From contig MFNE01000010.1 in NCBI GenBank assembly GCA_001783695.1, positions 126,223-164,576 of the forward strand: a DNA stretch of 38,354 bases, in the 5' to 3' direction. This stretch comes from Candidatus Lambdaproteobacteria bacterium RIFOXYD2_FULL_50_16. GTDB lineage: Bacteria > SAR324 > XYD2-FULL-50-16. The position numbers were made by a program, and so were the translations under genes. This document shows positions 1,219 to 27,901 of this stretch, in pieces; within the stretch, counting starts at the first letter, position 1, and each line of letters opens with the position of its first letter. A model generated the notes under the pieces. The model made no database searches and had not been told where the DNA came from. It was given only the letters and a program-made list of their open reading frames with translations.

Positions 1219-2085
1219 TTAGAAGGCGTATTTAAACTTAAAGGTCGTAGCACTAGCCACCGCATCTGCCGCCGTTTCTTCGTAGGTCCGACTGGCTACG
1301 CTTAAGAAGAAGTGGGCTTGATAGCTATAATAAAAGGTTCCCTCTACTTTATATCCGCTTTTGTACACCGTAGGACTATTATAAAGCGTAAAGCCACTGT
1401 CGCGCACAGCGAAGGCTTCTTTGCCAGAATAGAGGTCTAAGGTTGTGGCCCAACGCATTCGATAGATTCCCGCATTTAACGTGGTCGAAGTGAAAGAGGT
1501 GTCACCTTTGTATGCCGGGGCGCTAAGGTTGATGAGGTTCATACTGGCACCTGCCGAGTATTTCCCATAGTCAAAGGGAAAAGAAATCTGCGGGGTCCAC
1601 TGGTTAACCACGAGGCCGCTACCCAAGGAAGACCAGGTGGAGGAGTATAAAGGGTAGTTACCATAAGAGGATCGATACCAGTCAATATCAGCCGAAAAAA
1701 CCCCATATTTACTGAAAGTGGTTCCTAGGCCAATCATTCGGCCCCCGTCAGAGTCGGAATCATCACCAGATACCCCATGGGTACCAATCCGATATTTATT
1801 GGAGTAACTTTTGTAATAGGTGTAATAAACGGCGGTGTTTTGCTGCCCTGTTTGAGTACCGGTCAGGCTGGTGAAGGAGGCTTTTTCAGCGCCGATCTCA
1901 AGTGAGTTAGAAAGTCCCATCCCCCAAAACAAATAAGCTCCAGTGATGCTACCTTTGTCTTTAGTAGCTGAATCCTTATATGCCAACGACGAAACATAAG
2001 GCATCAGAGTAAAAGCTTGGTCCGCTTTAACCATTGGAGCAAATAAACAGAGGGACAAGCTCAAAAAAGACAGGATTTTTTTCAT
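1219..2085 (-). CDS. Outer-membrane beta-barrel protein, unknown function
   Basis: A 288-residue protein with a signal peptide (residues 1-21, MKKILSFLSLSLCLFAPMVKA, probably cleaved before DQ). The mature part is rich in alternating polar/hydrophobic strands with many Tyr, Ser and Gly residues and no cysteine. It ends in FKFKYAF, where the terminal Phe is the usual recognition signal for outer-membrane barrel assembly. About 12 amphipathic strands seem possible by eye. It lies 98 bases after the urea-transporter/M23 fusion gene and 5 bases before the exported TPR gene. I cannot assign a family; a small porin or a barrel of the MetA-pathway/transporter type are options. No Shine-Dalgarno site precedes the ATG; the leader instead carries a CCTCCTT stretch. 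Confidence 0.75.
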   Translation of the reverse strand: MKKILSFLSLSLCLFAPMVKADQAFTLMPYVSSLAYKDSATKDKGSITGAYLFWGMGLSNSLEIGAEKASFTSLTGTQTGQQNTAVYYTYYKSYSNKYRIGTHGVSGDDSDSDGGRMIGLGTTFSKYGVFSADIDWYRSSYGNYPLYSSTWSSLGSGLVVNQWTPQISFPFDYGKYSAGASMNLINLSAPAYKGDTSFTSTTLNAGIYRMRWATTLDLYSGKEAFAVRDSGFTLYNSPTVYKSGYKVEGTFYYSYQAHFFLSVASRTYEETAADAVASATTFKFKYAF

Positions 2086-2183: not shown

Positions 2184-4277
2184 TCAGGAGCCTTTTGTTT
2201 GAAACTTTTGACTAATTAACTTGCTTTCGATCAATTCTAAGCGAATGGCCCCAGCCTCAATAACTAAAAACCCCAGTTGCTGATCCAATTTAACGTAAGT
2301 GTCCATAGCCCATCCTCCCCACCCTGACTTCACTTGGCCCTTGACCAAACCGGGCCCATCAAACCGGTACCGCCCCTTGACCTCAGCGAGGGGGCCAAAA
2401 AAAGAACTGGCAAGGAGCAAAAGCCCCTTCGCCAGGGGGGCGAAAAAAGCCTCTAGGTCCAAGTGATCCTCAAACACAAGTTGATCCCCTTCTACGAGTG
2501 GCAATCGTGGCAGAGCTTGGTATAGGGCTTTCAAATAAGGATCTGTTCCCTCGACTGAATACACAAAAAAAACGTTTTGTTGCTTGCCAAAATACAACTT
2601 ACCCCGCTTGGAAACCAAGGCAGAACTCCCATCTTCGTTCATCTCCACCACCCAGGTGACCTCCTCGGATTTCCCACGACTTTTTGCTAAATAGGTAAAA
2701 CTCCGGTCTAATGAAAATGCGGTTTTCCTGGTTAAGGTGCGGCTTTTAATCAGGGATTCGAGTTGGTCTCCTGTAGCCGGGCGGCCTTGGTGAAAGTAGG
2801 TTCCTTGGGTGCGGTAATTACCTAAACAAAAGGGTCTTGTGGGCGAACCAATATTTGCATCAATTTGCACCTGTAAATGGATATGAGGTTCGGGCGAATA
2901 TCCCGAATTGCCACATTGAGCAATCAGGTAGCCCGCCATAACCCAATCCCCCGCTTTTACTTTAATTGAATTCTGCGCTAAGTGACTAAGTTCAACAAAA
3001 AACCCTTCCTCCGTTTTAATCACAAGGTAATTCCCCCAACTCCCTGGAGGCTCTGGCGAACCAATGGGAGTGTCTGGGCGGCTCTGGTCTAAGGCAACCA
3101 CTCGCCCGGTAACCGGGGCTAAAACCGGCTTTTTATAGGCATAATAATCAGTTAATCGGTCGCCAGCTCCTTGGAAGGTTTCACCTCTGCTATCGGTAAC
3201 CACAAAATCGTAGGCTTGCGCCCAGATTCCCTGGTGAGTCCAGGGGCCATCAAATCCCTGCCACACCTTCCACTGCCCCGAAAAAGGAAGTTCTACCATA
3301 GGTCCTAGGTTAGGAAAACGGCGCCTTTGGGTGAGGTGGAGGTCAAGGGTGCGTTCGGGGGACTCCTTGATTACACTAGGGATCAAGGGGAATTCAAGCA
3401 GGGTTAAAATATATAAAAACAGTAGCGTGACCAGCACAAAAGGCAAGGGAAAGGCGGGGATGCCAAAACTCGCCCAAATCAACTCCACCGCGTCCACAAA
3501 CAAGGTCGATACCGCCACCGCTACCAAGGCTAACAGATAACTCTTTGGCGAAGGGATCAAAAACACCCCTCCTAATGACATGGCAATTAAAATAAAATTA
3601 AAATGGTTGTAGTCAGCAAAAGAGAGCTGCATCGAGCCCGTCATCAGGCCGGTCACCAAACTACCGGAAAAATACCCGGCTAAACTAAGTAAAAACCAAA
3701 TTCTCGATACTAAAAAAATAGTCAGCGCCAAAATCATCCCCACCATCACTTGGGGCATAAAAAAAATGGCCCCAAGGCTTTTAAAATAACCTTCTAACCA
3801 AAAGGGCAGACCTAATTCCCAGACTGGTGTGCGGGTTGGGTATAGATATCCAACAAACAACCCCGAATATTTACGCGCCGCCAAAAACACCAAGGACCCT
3901 GAAATAACGAAGGGAAGGCTTAATATGGGCAGTTTAAACAAATGAGTAAAAAAGTGGTTTAAAGCGATGGTCAAGGCGAAGGTGACTACTGAGGCAATCA
4001 ACGTAAAAAAGAGACTAAGTAAACCAAGCTCAAACACCCGCCCGATGGCGAAACCCACTAGTAAAGGGTTGTACGTATAAAACCCAGAGTCTAAAAATCC
4101 TTTTTTAAGGCCAATTGCCCGGGCGAAGAGGTAACTGGCCAAGACCGCCACCAACCCCATCAAGGCCATGTTTGGATAAAGAAAACTAAGCCCCAGAAAC
4201 ACCACTCCCACCCAAGGGCGAGATATAAAAAGCACCTCGCCATAGCTATTGGCTATGGCGTTTAGGTACGCTTTCAT
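2184..4277 (-). CDS. Urea-transporter family membrane protein fused to an M23 metallopeptidase
   Basis: A 697-residue, two-part protein. Residues 1 to about 300 form roughly ten membrane segments with urea-transporter (UT) family marks: TYNPLLVG (68-75) and FNFILIAMSLGGVFLIPS (226-243), the pseudo-repeat motif lining the UT pore. Residues about 330-500 are an M23 (LytM/lysostaphin-like) zinc peptidase domain: H348 and D357, GNYLVI, SHL with H432, GNSG (456-459), and the HxH pair H465/H467, so the zinc and catalytic residues appear intact. Residues 500-697 are an extra beta-rich region I do not recognise. The start overlaps the stop of the decarboxylase gene by 4 bases (ATGA), so translation is coupled. 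Classical UTs pass urea; here the substrate may be another small amide or amine. The peptidase would be expected to face the periplasm and cut peptidoglycan or a peptide, which is inference. Confidence 0.88.
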   Translation of the reverse strand: MKAYLNAIANSYGEVLFISRPWVGVVFLGLSFLYPNMALMGLVAVLASYLFARAIGLKKGFLDSGFYTYNPLLVGFAIGRVFELGLLSLFFTLIASVVTFALTIALNHFFTHLFKLPILSLPFVISGSLVFLAARKYSGLFVGYLYPTRTPVWELGLPFWLEGYFKSLGAIFFMPQVMVGMILALTIFLVSRIWFLLSLAGYFSGSLVTGLMTGSMQLSFADYNHFNFILIAMSLGGVFLIPSPKSYLLALVAVAVSTLFVDAVELIWASFGIPAFPLPFVLVTLLFLYILTLLEFPLIPSVIKESPERTLDLHLTQRRRFPNLGPMVELPFSGQWKVWQGFDGPWTHQGIWAQAYDFVVTDSRGETFQGAGDRLTDYYAYKKPVLAPVTGRVVALDQSRPDTPIGSPEPPGSWGNYLVIKTEEGFFVELSHLAQNSIKVKAGDWVMAGYLIAQCGNSGYSPEPHIHLQVQIDANIGSPTRPFCLGNYRTQGTYFHQGRPATGDQLESLIKSRTLTRKTAFSLDRSFTYLAKSRGKSEEVTWVVEMNEDGSSALVSKRGKLYFGKQQNVFFVYSVEGTDPYLKALYQALPRLPLVEGDQLVFEDHLDLEAFFAPLAKGLLLLASSFFGPLAEVKGRYRFDGPGLVKGQVKSGWGGWAMDTYVKLDQQLGFLVIEAGAIRLELIESKLISQKFQTKGS

Positions 4278-5626
4278 CGGAGTTTTAATCGGTCAGGTAA
4301 GACCTCCCGCCGCTGGATATCGCTTAGGTCTTCTCGTTCCCTGATCAACTCACCTTGCCCTTGAGGTGTTACCAATACCGAGGCGGGGCGATATTCGATA
4401 AACTGCATAGATTGAGTGTGATTGTAAGCCCCAACCGGCGAAAGCACTAGTTTGGCCCCCCGCTCCAAACGGGGCAACAGACAAGCCTCATCCAGCACAT
4501 CTAGGTTCATACAAAGAGGTCCATAAACCACACTAGGCTCGTTGAGCCCTTCGGTTTCTTGCGCTAATTCTAAATTGTGGCGAAACCAATAAGTGGTGTA
4601 TAAAATATTGACCCCGGCGTCCACAATATAGGCGCGACGCCCATCGGGAAGACGTTTGGAAGAGGTGACACTGGTGATCAAATAACCGGCATCGTCAATC
4701 ATAGCCCGCCCGGTTTCTAGGATCAACTTGGGGAAATGACCGGGCTGTAGGGCCCCCAACAGGGCCTCGCAGATTGCTTCAGCGTAGCTGTCCAAGGTTG
4801 GCACCCCCACTTCAGGGGGCAAATAGACCCCTTTTAATCGCCCAGAGGAGGGAAAACCGCCGCCAATGTCATAATATTCAATTTCAAAACCCCATTCCTG
4901 CTCCAGGCGATATCCGAAGGCCACCATCTTGGTGATTTGGGTAGCATAGGCTTGGGGCTCCATGACGTAAGTACCAATATGGGCGTGAAGCCCCCTAATG
5001 GTTAACTTGCCCCCAGCTTGTATTCGTTTCACCGCCTCTTCGGCCATGCCCTTTTCCAGATCAAAACCAAACTTGGACCATTGGGGATAAATTCCACAGT
5101 CCATACTGATCCTTATGGCGACCGAGATTTGCTGGCCTCGTTCCTCGGCCAGGGCTTCTAGGTCGTAAACCTCATCTAGGTGATCTATTTGGATCATGGC
5201 CCCTTCATTAACCGCCAAACGAAGGTCTTCGATCCTTTTAAAAGGCCCATTAAAAATAATTTTATGTGCCGGTACACCCAAAGCTCGGGCTTTTTGGTAT
5301 TCAAAACCTGAAACCACTTCGGCTAGGGCCCCTTGAGCATGCATCACCGCGCAAATGGCGGATAAATAGTTAGTTTTATAAGACCAACCAAACTGCACGT
5401 TTGGATAACGGGTGGAAAAACTAGACTTTAATTTGTTGGCGCGCTCAATGATTTCAGCTTCAGAATACACAAATAGAGGCGAACCAAATTGCTCAATCAA
5501 ATCATCTATTTTTGCTCCCCCAATCTCTTTTCTGACCCGCTTTAAATAAAAAGGTTTCCCACCAAACTTATTCATTCCGCCCGTTTTTAAGCGGACTAAA
5601 TTGGGAGCTTCATAAGGTTTTTTCAT
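4274..5626 (-). CDS. PLP-dependent decarboxylase, DapDC/ornithine-lysine fold-III type
   Basis: A 450-residue fold-type III PLP enzyme, related to diaminopimelate decarboxylase (LysA) and its secondary-metabolism relatives. The Schiff-base lysine is K84 in WSYKTNY. HAHIGTY (214-220) and DIGGGFP (253-259) form the barrel's PLP phosphate-binding elements. LETGR (303-307) replaces the usual EPGR, and GPLCMNLDVL (about 369-378) matches the GPxCxSxD cysteine motif with Asn instead of Ser. These changes suggest a substrate other than free meso-DAP. The first 40 residues extend beyond the usual start. It overlaps both neighbours by 4 bases, the ATP-grasp gene upstream and the transporter/peptidase downstream, which argues for one pathway. 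A lysA housekeeping role is possible but the context disfavours it. Confidence 0.88.
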   Translation of the reverse strand: MKKPYEAPNLVRLKTGGMNKFGGKPFYLKRVRKEIGGAKIDDLIEQFGSPLFVYSEAEIIERANKLKSSFSTRYPNVQFGWSYKTNYLSAICAVMHAQGALAEVVSGFEYQKARALGVPAHKIIFNGPFKRIEDLRLAVNEGAMIQIDHLDEVYDLEALAEERGQQISVAIRISMDCGIYPQWSKFGFDLEKGMAEEAVKRIQAGGKLTIRGLHAHIGTYVMEPQAYATQITKMVAFGYRLEQEWGFEIEYYDIGGGFPSSGRLKGVYLPPEVGVPTLDSYAEAICEALLGALQPGHFPKLILETGRAMIDDAGYLITSVTSSKRLPDGRRAYIVDAGVNILYTTYWFRHNLELAQETEGLNEPSVVYGPLCMNLDVLDEACLLPRLERGAKLVLSPVGAYNHTQSMQFIEYRPASVLVTPQGQGELIREREDLSDIQRREVLPDRLKLR

Positions 5627-6660
5627 CGTTCCCCTTTTGTGGAAATGGCAGAGAGGGTTTCCATACCCATAATACGCTCCTCAACGTAGCGGATGTACAA
5701 CTGGCCGGCCTCAAATTGGCGCTGTTCTAAAAGGGGCAAACCCATTTGAGCGCGAATTAGATTCGCTGCCAAATTAACCCCTAACGCAGCCCCAAAATAG
5801 GACCAAGCAGGAAAACGGGGATTGATTTCAATTAGGTATAACTTATCACCGTCCACTAAACATTCTAACTCATAGGGCCCCAGCCACTTAGTGTAGTTAA
5901 CAAATTTTTCCCCCGCCTCCAGCAGTTGGGGATGCCGAATGCTAACTCCCGTCCAGATTTTTCCTTGGGTGGTGGTGCCCATTTTTTTAATAGCCACCAT
6001 CCCCAGCGAGTTCCCCTTGCCGTCGCCCACCCCGACCAGGTTAATCTCTTGGCCCGTTTTGTATTCTTGCACCAAAACCGGATAGCCCCACTCGGCCACC
6101 AAGACGTAGTACGCGCTCAAGGCTTCAGCCATATTGCTGGCGTAGATCGCCCGGTAATAAACCCCTTTAATCATCAATGGGAACTTGAGTTCTTTGGCTG
6201 CTTCAGCCAATTCTTCTTCGCTTGTGACTTTTTTGGTTTTGGGGAGCTTTAGGCCTAAGGACTCGGCCAAGGGTGCCAAATGTTCCTTGCCCCTTTGTTC
6301 AAACTGTTTTTTAGAAGGCAACAGCACCCCAACCCCGCCTTTGGCCAGTTCGTCGGCACAGGCGATATAAAGAGGTAATTCAACGTCTAAAGTAGGTAGC
6401 AAATAATCTAACCCACAGGTCTCTTTAATGTAAAAAATCCGTTCTAAAAAGGCTTGCTTCCCGGCGGAGGGGTAGGGCATTAAAAAGGCATGGTCAAACC
6501 ACTGGTCAAGGTAAACCCCTGATTCCATAGCATCATAAGCCAGACCCACAATACTTAAATCAAGCCCGTGATCCTCTTTTAACGCCTTCGCTACCCCTAT
6601 TCCAGGAGCAGGATTATCAATCGAATTTAGCCCTGATAGGCCAATGTAGGTCTTGGCCAT
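5623..6660 (-). CDS. ATP-grasp ligase, carbamoyl-phosphate-synthetase-like
   Basis: A 345-residue cytoplasmic ATP-grasp enzyme. The N-terminal pre-ATP-grasp region includes ISIDNPAPG-like LNSIDNPAPGIGVAKALKE. The ATP-binding core shows PLMIKG (K165), VQEY (E199) and ELECLVDGDKLYLIEINPRFP, where E266, E278 and N280 are the expected magnesium ligands. Such enzymes activate a carboxylate as an acyl phosphate and join it to an amine or thiol. The gene begins 5 bases after the pqqD-like gene and its stop overlaps the start of the PLP decarboxylase by 4 bases. The pairing of an ATP-grasp ligase with a LysA-like decarboxylase recalls BtrJ/BtrK of butirosin synthesis, where an amino acid is loaded on a carrier and then decarboxylated. 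The exact substrate cannot be read from the sequence. Confidence 0.88.
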   Translation of the reverse strand: MAKTYIGLSGLNSIDNPAPGIGVAKALKEDHGLDLSIVGLAYDAMESGVYLDQWFDHAFLMPYPSAGKQAFLERIFYIKETCGLDYLLPTLDVELPLYIACADELAKGGVGVLLPSKKQFEQRGKEHLAPLAESLGLKLPKTKKVTSEEELAEAAKELKFPLMIKGVYYRAIYASNMAEALSAYYVLVAEWGYPVLVQEYKTGQEINLVGVGDGKGNSLGMVAIKKMGTTTQGKIWTGVSIRHPQLLEAGEKFVNYTKWLGPYELECLVDGDKLYLIEINPRFPAWSYFGAALGVNLAANLIRAQMGLPLLEQRQFEAGQLYIRYVEERIMGMETLSAISTKGER

Positions 6661-6665
6661 TATAG

Positions 6666-6905
6666 CTACAAGAGTTGGTTTAATCGAAGTTGGGCCAAAA
6701 AGTCAGCCAGATCGCGCTCAATACGGGAGGTTGAGACCTCATAATTTTCGGCCAAATCCGCCTTGATCGCTTCGATACTTTTCCCCCCTTGCAACCCCCT
6801 GATCACCATCGCCGCAGAGCCATTGGCGGTATAGCTTTCTCCGCTGGTCGGGTCAAATAAAAACCCTTCACCGTTGATAGCCAGTTGTTTGATTCTATGA
6901 CTCAT
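6666..6905 (-). CDS. PqqD-family small protein (possible RiPP recognition element-like chaperone)
   Basis: A 79-residue protein with the PqqD pattern: FDPTSGESYTANGSAA (17-32), then a winged-helix half with GGKSIEAIKADLAENYEVS and RDLADFLAQL. PqqD domains bind leader peptides or partner proteins in PQQ and other RiPP pathways (RiPP recognition elements); stand-alone PqqD-like proteins also occur next to kinases and ATP-grasp enzymes. No pqqA, pqqC or radical-SAM pqqE gene is nearby, so this is not PQQ synthesis. It is the first gene of the minus-strand cassette. The ATG at 6905 has no Shine-Dalgarno site, and a good promoter ends about 10 bases before it, so the message may be nearly leaderless. 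Confidence 0.82.
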   Translation of the reverse strand: MSHRIKQLAINGEGFLFDPTSGESYTANGSAAMVIRGLQGGKSIEAIKADLAENYEVSTSRIERDLADFLAQLRLNQLL

Positions 6906-7117: not shown

Positions 7118-9589
7118 CTACTCTAAGCCTTTTACCTCGCATAAGAGGCTGGGGCCCTCGACCAAAACTAACTCCATCGCCCGCACGGCTGAGGCAATCT
7201 CAGATTGGAAGTCTTGGCAAGCGCCTAGCACCTCTGCCGGAGCGTTCAAGGTAACTTGCGCCACCTTGGTAGCAATACCGATTTTTTGCTCGATTTTTTG
7301 TTTGCGAATTAAGCTTAAGATTTCGGATACCCTTTCGCCATCTTTAAGCTGGGCTTGGTTCCAGCCCTCGTGGCTCGGCTTTGGCCAACTCGCGATATGG
7401 ATACTAACCGGTTCACCTTCGATTTGGTCTTTGAAAAATCCCTGGTACAAATGTTCTGTCACAAAGGGAATTACTGGGGCCAAAAGTTTGACAATCGAAT
7501 ATAACACCTCGACCGCAACCGCCTTGCCTGCCTGGATTTGAGCGTCGCTATAAGACTTCTCTTGTTCAGGATTTTCCCAAAGACGGAATTTGATCATTTC
7601 CAAATAATTGTCACAGTAGCTGTCCCAAAAAAAACGCTCTACCGTTCGCAACGCATTGGAATAATCATATTTTTCAAAAAAATCGGTAACCTGCTCGACA
7701 CACTTGGCATTAGCCGCCAACAACCATCGGTCCACTGGCATCAATGCCTCATTGTCCCAGTGGTGTTTATACCCATCCCCCACGGTTTGGGCTAAAAAAC
7801 GGGTCGAATTATAAAGTTTATTAAGCAACTTCTGCCCTGATTTTACCTCTTGTTCATTATACCTTAAATCATTGCCCAAGGTGCCCAAAGCCGACCAGTA
7901 TCTAAGGGCGTCTGCACTGAAATTTTTAACAATGTCGCTTGGGTCTTCGTAATTTCCTTTGGACTTGCTGATCTTTTGTCCCTGTTTATCAAGCCCCCAA
8001 CCAGAGACCACAATGTCTTTCCAAGGCAACCCTTGGTGATGGAAATGGGACTTAACCAAGGTATAAAAAGTCCAGGTACGGATGATCTCAAACCCTTGAA
8101 CCCTTACGGACATAGGAAAAAGCCCTGGTCGTTCGGCGGCCCAAGTATAGTCGTCATTAAGGGTCATCCCGGCGTTAATCTGCGGGGTCAAGCTGCTGGT
8201 CATCCAGGTGTCGAAAACGTCCCCTTCTGGTCGAAAAGCCTGGGAGCCACAAACCGGACAACGCTCCAACCCTGGGCCAGTGGTGGTGGGGTCCAAAGGC
8301 AATTGGTGGGGCTCCGCAAAATGCGTATAGGCGCAGTCTTCACAATACCAGACCGGAATGGGCACGCCGTAAAACCGCTGCCTAGAGATACACCAGTCCC
8401 ACTTAAGCCCCTCGACCCAATGGTCGTGGCGCTTTTGAAAATAATCAGGATACCAGTCTAGTTGATCGGCACGATTTAAGAAATCGTTTTGGTGGTCCAT
8501 CAGGCTGATAAACCACTGCAAATGGGGGATGTATTCGACCGGAGTCCCACTGCGTTCGGCTACGCTAACTCTTTGTAAGGTTTGGGTTTGCCCCTTTAGC
8601 TCACCCGTTTCTTTGAGCCGCGCTAAGACCGCCTCTCTAAGTTTATTAATATGCAACCCTTCAAACTCGCCAGCAAAATGGTTGGCCATTCCGCGCTCGT
8701 CGATAATCACCCTGGTGTCGAGTTTATATTTTTTCCATTTGGCTATATCTTCGGGGTCTCCAAAGGTACAAACCATCATCAAACCACTGCCAAATTCCGG
8801 GTCAACCGTGTCATCTGCTAAGATTGGGACCGAGTGCTTAAAGATGGGGGTCAGCGCATTTTTGCCTAAAAGAGACTGATATCTTTTATCATCAGGATGA
8901 CAAAACAGCGCCACACAGGCGGGAATCAATTCGGGGCGAGTGGTGGCGATAATCAATTCTTTTTCGTCTTCAGCAGATTTAAAGGCCACTGAATTAAGCA
9001 GACCATTGCGCTCTATGGTTTCGATATCGGCTTGCGCCAAAGCGGTTTGCATCGAAATGTCCCACATAATAGGGTCTTTTTTTCGCCTTGCCAGCCCCTT
9101 TTTAACCAAATCTAAAAAGCTGGATTGAGCAACCTTGACCGCTTTTGGGCCAATGGTGTTGTATTCCAAACTCCAGTCCACGCTAATCCCCAACATCCGC
9201 CAAAATTGGCGGTAGTTTTCGGTGACCAGCTTGGTTTCTTTCATACAAAGCGCCACAAATTCGGGGCGGGTAATTTTTTGTTTATTTATTTTATATTTGT
9301 TTTCGACATATCGCTCGGTCGGAAGTCCGTTGTCGTCAAAACCCATGGGGTAAAAAATATTAAACCCGGCCATCCGTTTTTGGCGCACTAGTATTTCTGC
9401 TTGTGAATAACTCATCGCATGCCCCACATGTAAATGGGCGGCAGAGGCATAAGGCGGGGGGGTGTCCACCGAAAAGAGGGGTTTGGTCGAATCGGGATCA
9501 TATTGATAAATCCCTTGTTCCTCCCAAAACTGGGACCAACGAGATTCGGCTTCTTGGTGTTCGTAACGTTTGGCTTCCAAAAGACTCAT
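7118..9589 (-). CDS. valS: Valyl-tRNA synthetase, archaeal/rickettsial-like type
   Basis: An 823-residue class I aminoacyl-tRNA synthetase that charges tRNA-Val. The HIGH signature is HVGH (54-57) preceded by PPPYASAAHL. The editing domain has ATTRPE (215-220). A zinc finger has CEDC (416-419) and CPVC (444-447). The KMSKS loop is KISKS (539-543) in GQKISKSKGNYEDPSD. The anticodon-binding domain (about 620-740) includes FFWDSYCDNYLEMIK. The PPPYAS and short length, without the long C-terminal coiled coil of E. coli ValS (951 residues), fit the archaeal-type ValRS also found in alphaproteobacteria and some others. The ATG at 9589 is followed by a typical SLLEAKRYEHQEAESRWSQF start. It stands alone, with 540 bases free of recognised genes upstream. 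Confidence 0.95.
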   Translation of the reverse strand: MSLLEAKRYEHQEAESRWSQFWEEQGIYQYDPDSTKPLFSVDTPPPYASAAHLHVGHAMSYSQAEILVRQKRMAGFNIFYPMGFDDNGLPTERYVENKYKINKQKITRPEFVALCMKETKLVTENYRQFWRMLGISVDWSLEYNTIGPKAVKVAQSSFLDLVKKGLARRKKDPIMWDISMQTALAQADIETIERNGLLNSVAFKSAEDEKELIIATTRPELIPACVALFCHPDDKRYQSLLGKNALTPIFKHSVPILADDTVDPEFGSGLMMVCTFGDPEDIAKWKKYKLDTRVIIDERGMANHFAGEFEGLHINKLREAVLARLKETGELKGQTQTLQRVSVAERSGTPVEYIPHLQWFISLMDHQNDFLNRADQLDWYPDYFQKRHDHWVEGLKWDWCISRQRFYGVPIPVWYCEDCAYTHFAEPHQLPLDPTTTGPGLERCPVCGSQAFRPEGDVFDTWMTSSLTPQINAGMTLNDDYTWAAERPGLFPMSVRVQGFEIIRTWTFYTLVKSHFHHQGLPWKDIVVSGWGLDKQGQKISKSKGNYEDPSDIVKNFSADALRYWSALGTLGNDLRYNEQEVKSGQKLLNKLYNSTRFLAQTVGDGYKHHWDNEALMPVDRWLLAANAKCVEQVTDFFEKYDYSNALRTVERFFWDSYCDNYLEMIKFRLWENPEQEKSYSDAQIQAGKAVAVEVLYSIVKLLAPVIPFVTEHLYQGFFKDQIEGEPVSIHIASWPKPSHEGWNQAQLKDGERVSEILSLIRKQKIEQKIGIATKVAQVTLNAPAEVLGACQDFQSEIASAVRAMELVLVEGPSLLCEVKGLE

Positions 9590-26236: not shown

Positions 26237-26587
<351 letters not shown>

Positions 26588-26614
26588 TCCCAATAACACT
26601 AAATCGGAGTTAGC

Positions 26615-27901
26615 ATGAAAAGGGGGCTCACCTTTTTATCACTCTTAGTCGCCCTTCCCTGGGCGGCTTACGCGGGACCGGCGGATTCGGGCGATACCGC
26701 CTGGATTTTGACCTCCACCGCCTTGGTATTATTTATGACCCTGCCGGGCTTGGCGCTGTTTTACGGCGGGCTGGTGGGCAGTAAAAACGTGCTTTCGGTC
26801 TTGATGCAGTGTTTTGCCATTACCTCCTTGGTCTCGCTTTTGTGGCTGGCCGGGCTTTATTCGGTTGCTTTTGCCGAAGGCAACGGGTTTATGGGCGGAT
26901 TTTCTAAAGCGATGTTTGCCGGAATGGGGACCCAATCCCTAACCGGGACTATTCCCGAAGCGGCCTTTGCCCTCTTCCAACTGACCTTCGCCGTGATCAC
27001 CCCCGCCTTGATTGTCGGGGCCTTCGCCGAACGGATGAAGTTTTCGGCAATGTTGATCTTCTCGGGTCTATGGGTGGCGGTGGTTTACGCCCCGGTGACC
27101 CACTGGGTTTGGGGCGGTGGCTGGTTGGGGGAGATGGGGCTCTTAGACTTTGCCGGTGGCACCGTGGTCCATATCACCGCTGGGGTCGCCGCCTTGGTCG
27201 CCGCCCTCGTGGTCGGCCCTCGGCGCACCTTTCCTCGCACCTCCACCCCGCCGCACAACATGACCATGACCGTCACCGGCGCGGGGATGCTCTGGGTCGG
27301 TTGGTTTGGCTTTAACGGGGGCAGTGCCCTTGGCGCCAACGGTTCGTCGGCCATGGCCATGTTGGTCACCCATATCTCGGCCGCCGCCGGAAGCCTCGCA
27401 TGGATGGCCTTAGAGTGGCGCAAGTTTGGCAAACCCTCGGTGTTGGGGATTGTCACGGGCATGGTCGCGGGCCTGGGGACCATCACCCCGGCTTGCGGGT
27501 TTGTAGGCCCTGGCGGGGCGCTCTTAATTGGCCTTATCGCCGGGGTGGTCTGCTTTAACGCGACCAACCTAATCAAGGTCCGCCTCAAGATCGACGACAG
27601 CCTAGACGTATTCCCGGTCCACGGGGTCGGCGGGATCATTGGCACTTTAATGGCCGGTTTTTTTGCCTCCACCGAACTAGGGGTCTTCTCGGGCTTTGGC
27701 TTTGGTAAAGGGATTGAGAGCCTAGGCCAGCAGCTAATGGTCCAGGCGACCGGGGTCTTGGCGACTGGAGTTTACGCCGGGGTGGTTAGCTTTGGGTTGT
27801 TTAAACTGACCGACGCCTTGGTGGGCCTGCGAGTTGATGAAGAGCAAGAAGTGATGGGCCTCGATTTGACCCAACACGAAGAGCGGGGTTACATCCTCTA
27901 G
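26615..27901 (+). CDS. amtB: Ammonium transporter
   Basis: A 428-residue inner-membrane channel for ammonium. It has an N-terminal cleavable signal-like segment (ending AAYAGP), eleven membrane segments, and the pore twin-histidines H186 (GGTVVHITAG) and H336 (DVFPVHGVGG). GALLIGLIAGVVCF and FGFNGGSALGANG are family marks. The tail ends with EEQEVMGLDLTQHEERGY, the conserved cytoplasmic motif where GlnK docks. The gene starts 27 bases after glnK. Confidence 0.97.
   Translation: MKRGLTFLSLLVALPWAAYAGPADSGDTAWILTSTALVLFMTLPGLALFYGGLVGSKNVLSVLMQCFAITSLVSLLWLAGLYSVAFAEGNGFMGGFSKAMFAGMGTQSLTGTIPEAAFALFQLTFAVITPALIVGAFAERMKFSAMLIFSGLWVAVVYAPVTHWVWGGGWLGEMGLLDFAGGTVVHITAGVAALVAALVVGPRRTFPRTSTPPHNMTMTVTGAGMLWVGWFGFNGGSALGANGSSAMAMLVTHISAAAGSLAWMALEWRKFGKPSVLGIVTGMVAGLGTITPACGFVGPGGALLIGLIAGVVCFNATNLIKVRLKIDDSLDVFPVHGVGGIIGTLMAGFFASTELGVFSGFGFGKGIESLGQQLMVQATGVLATGVYAGVVSFGLFKLTDALVGLRVDEEQEVMGLDLTQHEERGYIL

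Follow-up and report, generated by a model that had tools for sequence, protein, structure and literature searches.

What single task, if any, unites a row of genes that encode a PqqD-like protein, an ATP-grasp ligase, a decarboxylase resembling LysA and a fusion of a urea transporter (UT) domain with an M23 metallopeptidase? The locus lies in a stretch of 38,354 nucleotides (the window) from contig MFNE01000010.1 of Candidatus Lambdaproteobacteria bacterium RIFOXYD2_FULL_50_16. We tentatively propose that it encodes a conserved envelope-spanning system of biosynthesis and delivery, in which a ligation would be followed by a decarboxylation. The proposal draws on the replacement of both LysA-type specificity residues in the decarboxylase and on a gene order that distantly related bacteria have kept.

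Results

Gene order and co-occurrence

The four genes share one strand and are spaced by +5, -4 and -4 bases in the order pqqD, ATP-grasp, decarboxylase and UT-M23; this agrees with the original prediction and supports its claim of co-expression. That prediction stopped at these four, and it missed the barrel and tetratricopeptide repeat (TPR) genes: the unit extends past position 2184, on the same strand, through the genes for an outer-membrane beta-barrel and an exported TPR protein (587-2085), which makes six genes. We gathered homologous loci with alignments of the UT-M23 and ATP-grasp proteins; the gene maps were derived mechanically from six-frame translations, and many of the loci are contigs of metagenome-assembled genomes. 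The order PqqD, ATP-grasp, decarboxylase, UT-M23, barrel and TPR, mostly with overlaps or gaps of <40 bases, recurs in loci from Aquificota, Desulfobacterota-like, Hippea-like, verrucomicrobial, gammaproteobacterial and lambdaproteobacterial genomes, and all three large genes occur together in 46 fetched loci. The neighbourhood comparison thus bears out the earlier expectation of a conserved functional unit, and because distantly related bacteria keep the order, the six genes very likely perform one job.

An ATP-grasp orthologue (E<1e-40) was found in 3 of the 52 genomes of the window's phylum, in 16/395 of one deltaproteobacterial phylum, in 8/388 of one verrucomicrobial phylum, in 4/25 of the phylum of a Hippea genome and in 4/392 of the order of a Cellvibrionaceae genome; at E<1e-100, 42 of 136 Aquificota genomes carry one (counted from the table of matches). 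Across the 46 loci, tree distances of the ATP-grasp, decarboxylase and UT-M23 proteins correlate with r of 0.94-0.97, in part owing to common descent inside lineages, and the decarboxylase tree intermingles members of different phyla; taken together, these two observations fit joint horizontal transfer. The decarboxylase of the window shares 62.6% identity with a verrucomicrobial protein and 56-61% with those of its own phylum. Searches of viral contigs gave no match, and those of plasmids gave only partial or distant matches and no full system.

The partners also co-occur where they are dispersed, as in a few Aquificota, in which they are still present in the genome. All three isolated UT-M23 loci (L038, L046 and L047) belong to genomes that hold PqqD and ATP-grasp genes elsewhere. 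Full-length UT-M23 was present in all 20 of the ATP-grasp-positive Aquificota genomes tested (in one case split over contigs), and a decarboxylase orthologue of >750 bits in 8/8 genomes tested, six of which have a second LysA-like match of <175 bits.

The decarboxylase

Like LysA, the operon decarboxylase keeps the fold, the lysine that binds pyridoxal phosphate (PLP) and the catalytic cysteine; it scores 108.7 bits against Orn_Arg_deC_N (Pfam cut-off 23.4), and K84, C372 and Y401 are invariant among its 48 relatives. Judged by its other residues, it is not LysA. It fails the NCBIfam LysA model TIGR01048 (232.1 bits against a cut-off of 297.9), and in 48/48 relatives T/S344 stands in place of the LysA arginine and M373 in place of the LysA glutamate. 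A second decarboxylase, on contig 33 of the same genome, has the CES..D and RPxxY motifs and the LysA R and E, and lies near apparent DapD and MurB genes; by these motifs and neighbours it is the true lysA, which removes the earlier concern that the operon enzyme might be the genome's only candidate for that role.

In diaminopimelate decarboxylase (DAPDC), the distal carboxylate is held by Arg343 and the free side-chain amine by an acidic residue beside the catalytic cysteine (PMC7857480). Crystallography of FigC revealed Thr and Met at those two positions, and this enzyme takes ornithine that is already acylated on its side chain (PMC7857480). The operon decarboxylases resemble FigC/FslC in their GPxCM and GAYN motifs and in the loss of the LysA arginine and acidic anchors. 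Since they carry Thr/Ser and Met at both anchor positions, as FigC does, we infer from the residues that their substrate is an adduct, and these replacements are the main evidence for that reading.

The closest solved structure is that of N-citrylornithine decarboxylase (7kh2, E=3e-52); BtrK structures match at E=1e-22, and the operon enzyme is nearer FigC than BtrK. FigC, SbnH, AcsE, MccE, BtrK and DAPDC form one clade, and in the case of BtrK the amino acid is first attached and then decarboxylated in place (PMC7857480). The analogy with BtrJ/BtrK of butirosin synthesis, drawn in the original prediction, therefore stands in so far as the decarboxylase belongs to a clade acting on already attached amino acids, and ligase and decarboxylase come from the same superfamilies in both systems. 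Unlike in butirosin synthesis, a PqqD-like protein replaces the acyl carrier BtrI, no acyl carrier protein gene occurs among the conserved neighbours, and the envelope genes have no counterpart there. The rhizoferrin FigC/FslC system differs as well: its ligase is a synthetase of the type independent of nonribosomal peptide synthetases (NIS), and it has no PqqD, UT or M23 protein. The operon enzyme fails the NCBIfam FigC/FslC model NF041039 (209.3 bits against a cut-off of 500), and the FigC citrate contacts H357, R387 and N389 are replaced by I/L, Q and M/L.

The PqqD-like protein and the ATP-grasp ligase

The small protein fits the PqqD profile, as had been predicted (PF05402, 51.9 bits against a cut-off of 23.4); it lies under every NCBIfam PqqD cut-off (TIGR03859, 28.5 against 46 bits). 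Its nearest solved relatives are TfuB1 and TbiB1, recognition elements (RREs) of lasso peptides, a class of ribosomally synthesized and post-translationally modified peptides (RiPPs). It resembles PqqD and the lasso-peptide B1 proteins in being a small stand-alone protein beside its enzyme, whereas the pqqA, lasso precursor, cyclase and radical SAM genes of those systems are absent from the standard operon. Wherever both were seen, pqqD adjoins the ATP-grasp gene (in L131 with a gap of 317 bases), and the pair stays together in L057 and L058, where the remaining genes have moved away. The idea of a PqqD-type recruiter is supported. A LysW-like carrier role for this protein is unlikely, because its C-terminus is variable and no C-terminal or Cys/Lys attachment residue is invariant.

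The ATP-grasp protein is divergent. Of the profiles expected at this locus (PqqD, ATP-grasp, decarboxylase, UT and M23), it alone stays under the Pfam cut-offs (ATPgrasp_Ter, 24.0 against 29.1 bits); its matches to NCBIfam PRK12767 models (E=4.5e-19) are also under cut-offs, and its best solved relative is the carbamoyl phosphate synthetase-like ATP-grasp protein 2pn1 (E=6e-14). The nucleotide- and metal-binding residues K165, E266, E278, N280 and R282 are invariant in 52/52 relatives, so the ligase is probably active.

The UT-M23 fusion and the outer envelope proteins

In the fusion protein, a UT-like domain (about residues 6-290) precedes an M23 domain (about 330-490), and the C-terminal region is rich in beta structure. 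It passes the Pfam models for UT (PF03253, 204.8 against 25 bits) and M23 (PF01551, 46.3 against 28.7 bits), and its UT domain is far under the NCBIfam yut model (113.8 against 274.6 bits). Its AlphaFold2 (AF2) model, with a mean predicted local distance difference test score (pLDDT) of 77, matches dvUT and M23 structures; because confidence is low in the UT parts 117-152 and 268-303, membrane orientation was not read from this model. The M23 residues H348, D357, H432, H465 and H467, together with C455, are invariant in 43/43 UT-M23 sequences, and the H-to-D spacing is longer than usual. The PF03253 score and the AF2 match liken the UT domain to the urea channels dvUT and UT-B; unlike them, it carries M23 and a further domain, and it has lost two glutamines, one per UT repeat, which we take to bind urea (position 14 is E/G/A and position 170 is A/T in the 43 sequences).

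UT proteins have their N- and C-terminus on the same side, and in human UT-B both termini are intracellular (PMC5700210). With transmembrane borders set by eye, the loops of side A carry 5.3 K+R per 49 residues and those of side B 3.8 per 82 residues. Both the UT topology and these charge counts favour a cytoplasmic side for the termini and for the M23 domain, which makes the periplasmic location first assumed for it doubtful. Two other elements of the original prediction, the UT domain as an exporter and a link to peptidoglycan, are unsupported by our results, the former in view of the glutamine positions that are not conserved.

The barrel protein is modelled by AF2 with 14 strands (pLDDT 90.6), and the TPR protein scores 39.1 bits against TPR_14. 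In most loci, homologues of the barrel occupy the same position and those of the TPR protein the same operon end.

Feature coordinates

Table 1. Genes of the unit in the window, followed by Cys-rich open reading frames (ORFs) in three related loci
Feature	Position	Strand	Assignment
PqqD-like (RRE-fold) protein, 79 aa	6666-6905	-	PF05402
ATP-grasp ligase, 345 aa	5623-6660	-	divergent; solved relative 2pn1
PLP-dependent alanine-racemase-fold decarboxylase, 450 aa, by its residues not LysA	4274-5626	-	Orn_Arg_deC_N; solved relative 7kh2
UT-M23 fusion, 697 aa	2184-4277	-	PF03253 + PF01551
Outer-membrane beta-barrel, 288 aa, signal peptide and C-terminal Phe	1219-2085	-	AF2 model
Exported TPR protein, 208 aa	587-1213	-	TPR_14
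Cys-rich ORFs	L100:9216-9347 and 9091-9246	-	
Cys-rich ORF	L101:10455-10589	+	
Cys-rich ORF	L103:10624-10758	+	

Discussion

We infer the following order of steps, along with the recruitment of a peptide and the direction of transport. In the cytoplasm, the PqqD-like protein would recruit a substrate, probably a peptide or the tail of a protein, to the ATP-grasp enzyme, which would spend ATP to form an amide between a carboxylate and the side chain of an amino acid, such that the alpha-amino and alpha-carboxyl groups stay free. The decarboxylase would then strip the alpha-carboxylate and leave an aminoalkyl amide, which would be a group of the gamma-aminobutyric acid type if the side-chain acid of glutamate were joined. 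The UT-M23 protein of the inner membrane would process the product or move it; the rest of the route outward would be provided by the exported TPR protein together with the barrel of the outer membrane. It is possible, although we advance this with less assurance than the proposal as a whole, that the locus represents an undescribed pathway, in which a PqqD recruiter, an ATP-grasp enzyme and an adduct decarboxylase would yield the aminoalkyl amide, a UT fold would be repurposed together with a cytoplasmic M23 domain, and delivery would have its own TPR and barrel proteins. We found no description of this gene combination in the open-licence PubMed Central papers searched.

Several points weigh against this proposal. 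In most lineages, neither a precursor peptide nor any other substrate came to light close to the operon, and when the short ORFs surrounding 37 loci were clustered, no precursor candidate proved general. The FigC citrate contacts are absent, which implies an acyl partner other than citrate. To our knowledge, the known members of the UT fold pass only small solutes, and they would be ill-suited to the export of a modified peptide.

The proposed system is of wider interest in that the bacteria carrying it are distantly related and many probably live as chemolithotrophs in hydrothermal settings, and in that it joins families seldom treated jointly, namely RRE-type recruiters, ATP-grasp ligases, adduct decarboxylases, UT channels and M23 peptidases. 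It also suggests that some genes named 'diaminopimelate decarboxylase' or 'urea transporter' have been misnamed.

A somewhat unlikely alternative is that the locus handles metals, the enzymes making a chelator (compare rhizoferrin, with its synthetase and FigC) which would be exported or would act together with small Cys-rich lipoproteins. The nearest characterised decarboxylase is indeed a siderophore enzyme, and Persephonella-type loci lie directly downstream of genes for CusBA/Czc-type efflux of the resistance-nodulation-division (RND) family, a DUF2231 protein and a VIT-like protein (a weak match, 23.3 against 28.1 bits); among these loci, one follows a FeoB-like gene and one a CzcD-like gene. 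In addition, three Desulfurobacteriaceae-type operons (L100, L101 and L103) contain a Cys-rich ORF of 43-44 aa with a signal peptide between the ATP-grasp and decarboxylase genes, one example of which ends SCCPCYKNCGCYPHRCCPCPPARR; such an ORF may encode a partner or a substrate in loci of this type. The flanks vary between lineages. In L100-L104, L122 and L123, a histidine kinase and response regulator, a DUF4405 membrane protein and OB-like or DUF2202 exported proteins are encoded upstream of pqqD, this two-component/DUF4405 block being common to Desulfurobacteriaceae-type loci and two loci of the deltaproteobacterial phylum, and in verrucomicrobial loci the upstream genes include ECF-sigma-like and kinase-like ones (these, like the FeoB-like and CzcD-like genes, were assigned by reading the sequence). 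In most lineages, however, the window included, no metal genes adjoin the unit, and for this reason we no longer regard a metal link as the main explanation. Nothing resembling the Cys-rich ORFs was seen in the remaining loci examined, the FigC-type citrate contacts are missing, and the unit includes neither a siderophore receptor nor a TonB-type gene.

It is unlikely that the locus is an ordinary RiPP cluster in which PqqD binds the leader, M23 acts as leader peptidase and the precursor is encoded elsewhere in the genome. The kinship of the PqqD-like protein with lasso-peptide RREs, the small Cys-rich candidates of one lineage and a cytoplasmic M23 domain, which would suit leader removal, all accord with such a cluster. 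No conserved precursor surrounds the 37 loci, however, and no credible precursor ORF lies between pqqD and valS in the window, which agrees with the original prediction. Moreover, lasso cyclase, YcaO and radical SAM genes are absent from the standard operon, and two of the Cys-rich ORFs lack the Asp or Glu that a side-chain ligation would need.

We consider it quite unlikely that the unit tailors the cell wall by placing a diamine-like group on the peptidoglycan stem, where M23 would trim the wall. The diamine-bearing peptidoglycan of some Negativicutes provides a precedent, the NCBIfam M23 matches are murein endopeptidases, and the catalytic M23 residues do not vary among the 43 sequences. 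On the other hand, M23 domains about 38-43% identical occur in Thermus and in haloarchaea, which are without murein, so the substrate may be something other than murein; the topology of UT proteins and the charges of the loops would place M23 inside the cell, and no Mur or penicillin-binding protein gene belongs to the unit.

The export of an amino-acid-derived polymer, with TPR and barrel proteins acting like PgaA, BcsC or the AlgK/AlgE pair, is very improbable. TPR and barrel regions are fused into one protein of 465 aa in L041:5203-6600 (+), where a separate TPR protein is encoded after it; the TPR protein has weak matches to PgaA and BcsC, and AlgE is among the Foldseek matches of the barrel. 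These barrel matches are nevertheless non-specific and include porins and FadL generically, a UT channel is no polymer conduit, and the unit has no polymerase. Finally, the chance adjacency of unrelated housekeeping genes such as lysA, which the decarboxylase's 232 bits against the lysA model might suggest, is refuted by a score under the 297.9 cut-off, a canonical lysA elsewhere and synteny in several phyla.

Variant loci and minor observations

Two divergent loci carry a double ligase, the two ATP-grasps lying in tandem. L137:3618-11582 (-) has no UT-M23; its divergent PqqD, its pair of ATP-grasps and its decarboxylase, which shows a GPICT motif, are followed by a RaSEA-like radical SAM protein (197 bits against a cut-off of 212) and a pentapeptide-repeat/ion-channel protein; in L111:1413-4769 (+), on a short contig, genes for TPR, PqqD, two tandem ATP-grasps and a decarboxylase form the second such variant. 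In L106:1661-3790 (+), UT-M23 keeps its place between the other five genes while its strand is opposite to theirs, through a real inversion or an assembly error, and in L127:8460-9498 (-) an in-frame stop interrupts the ATP-grasp gene while the remaining operon is intact. An Rfam search gave no match and a promoter scan gave scores not above those of shuffles. Elsewhere in the window (26249-27901, +), two paired genes read as those of a GlnB-like PII protein and an AmtB-like ammonium transporter.

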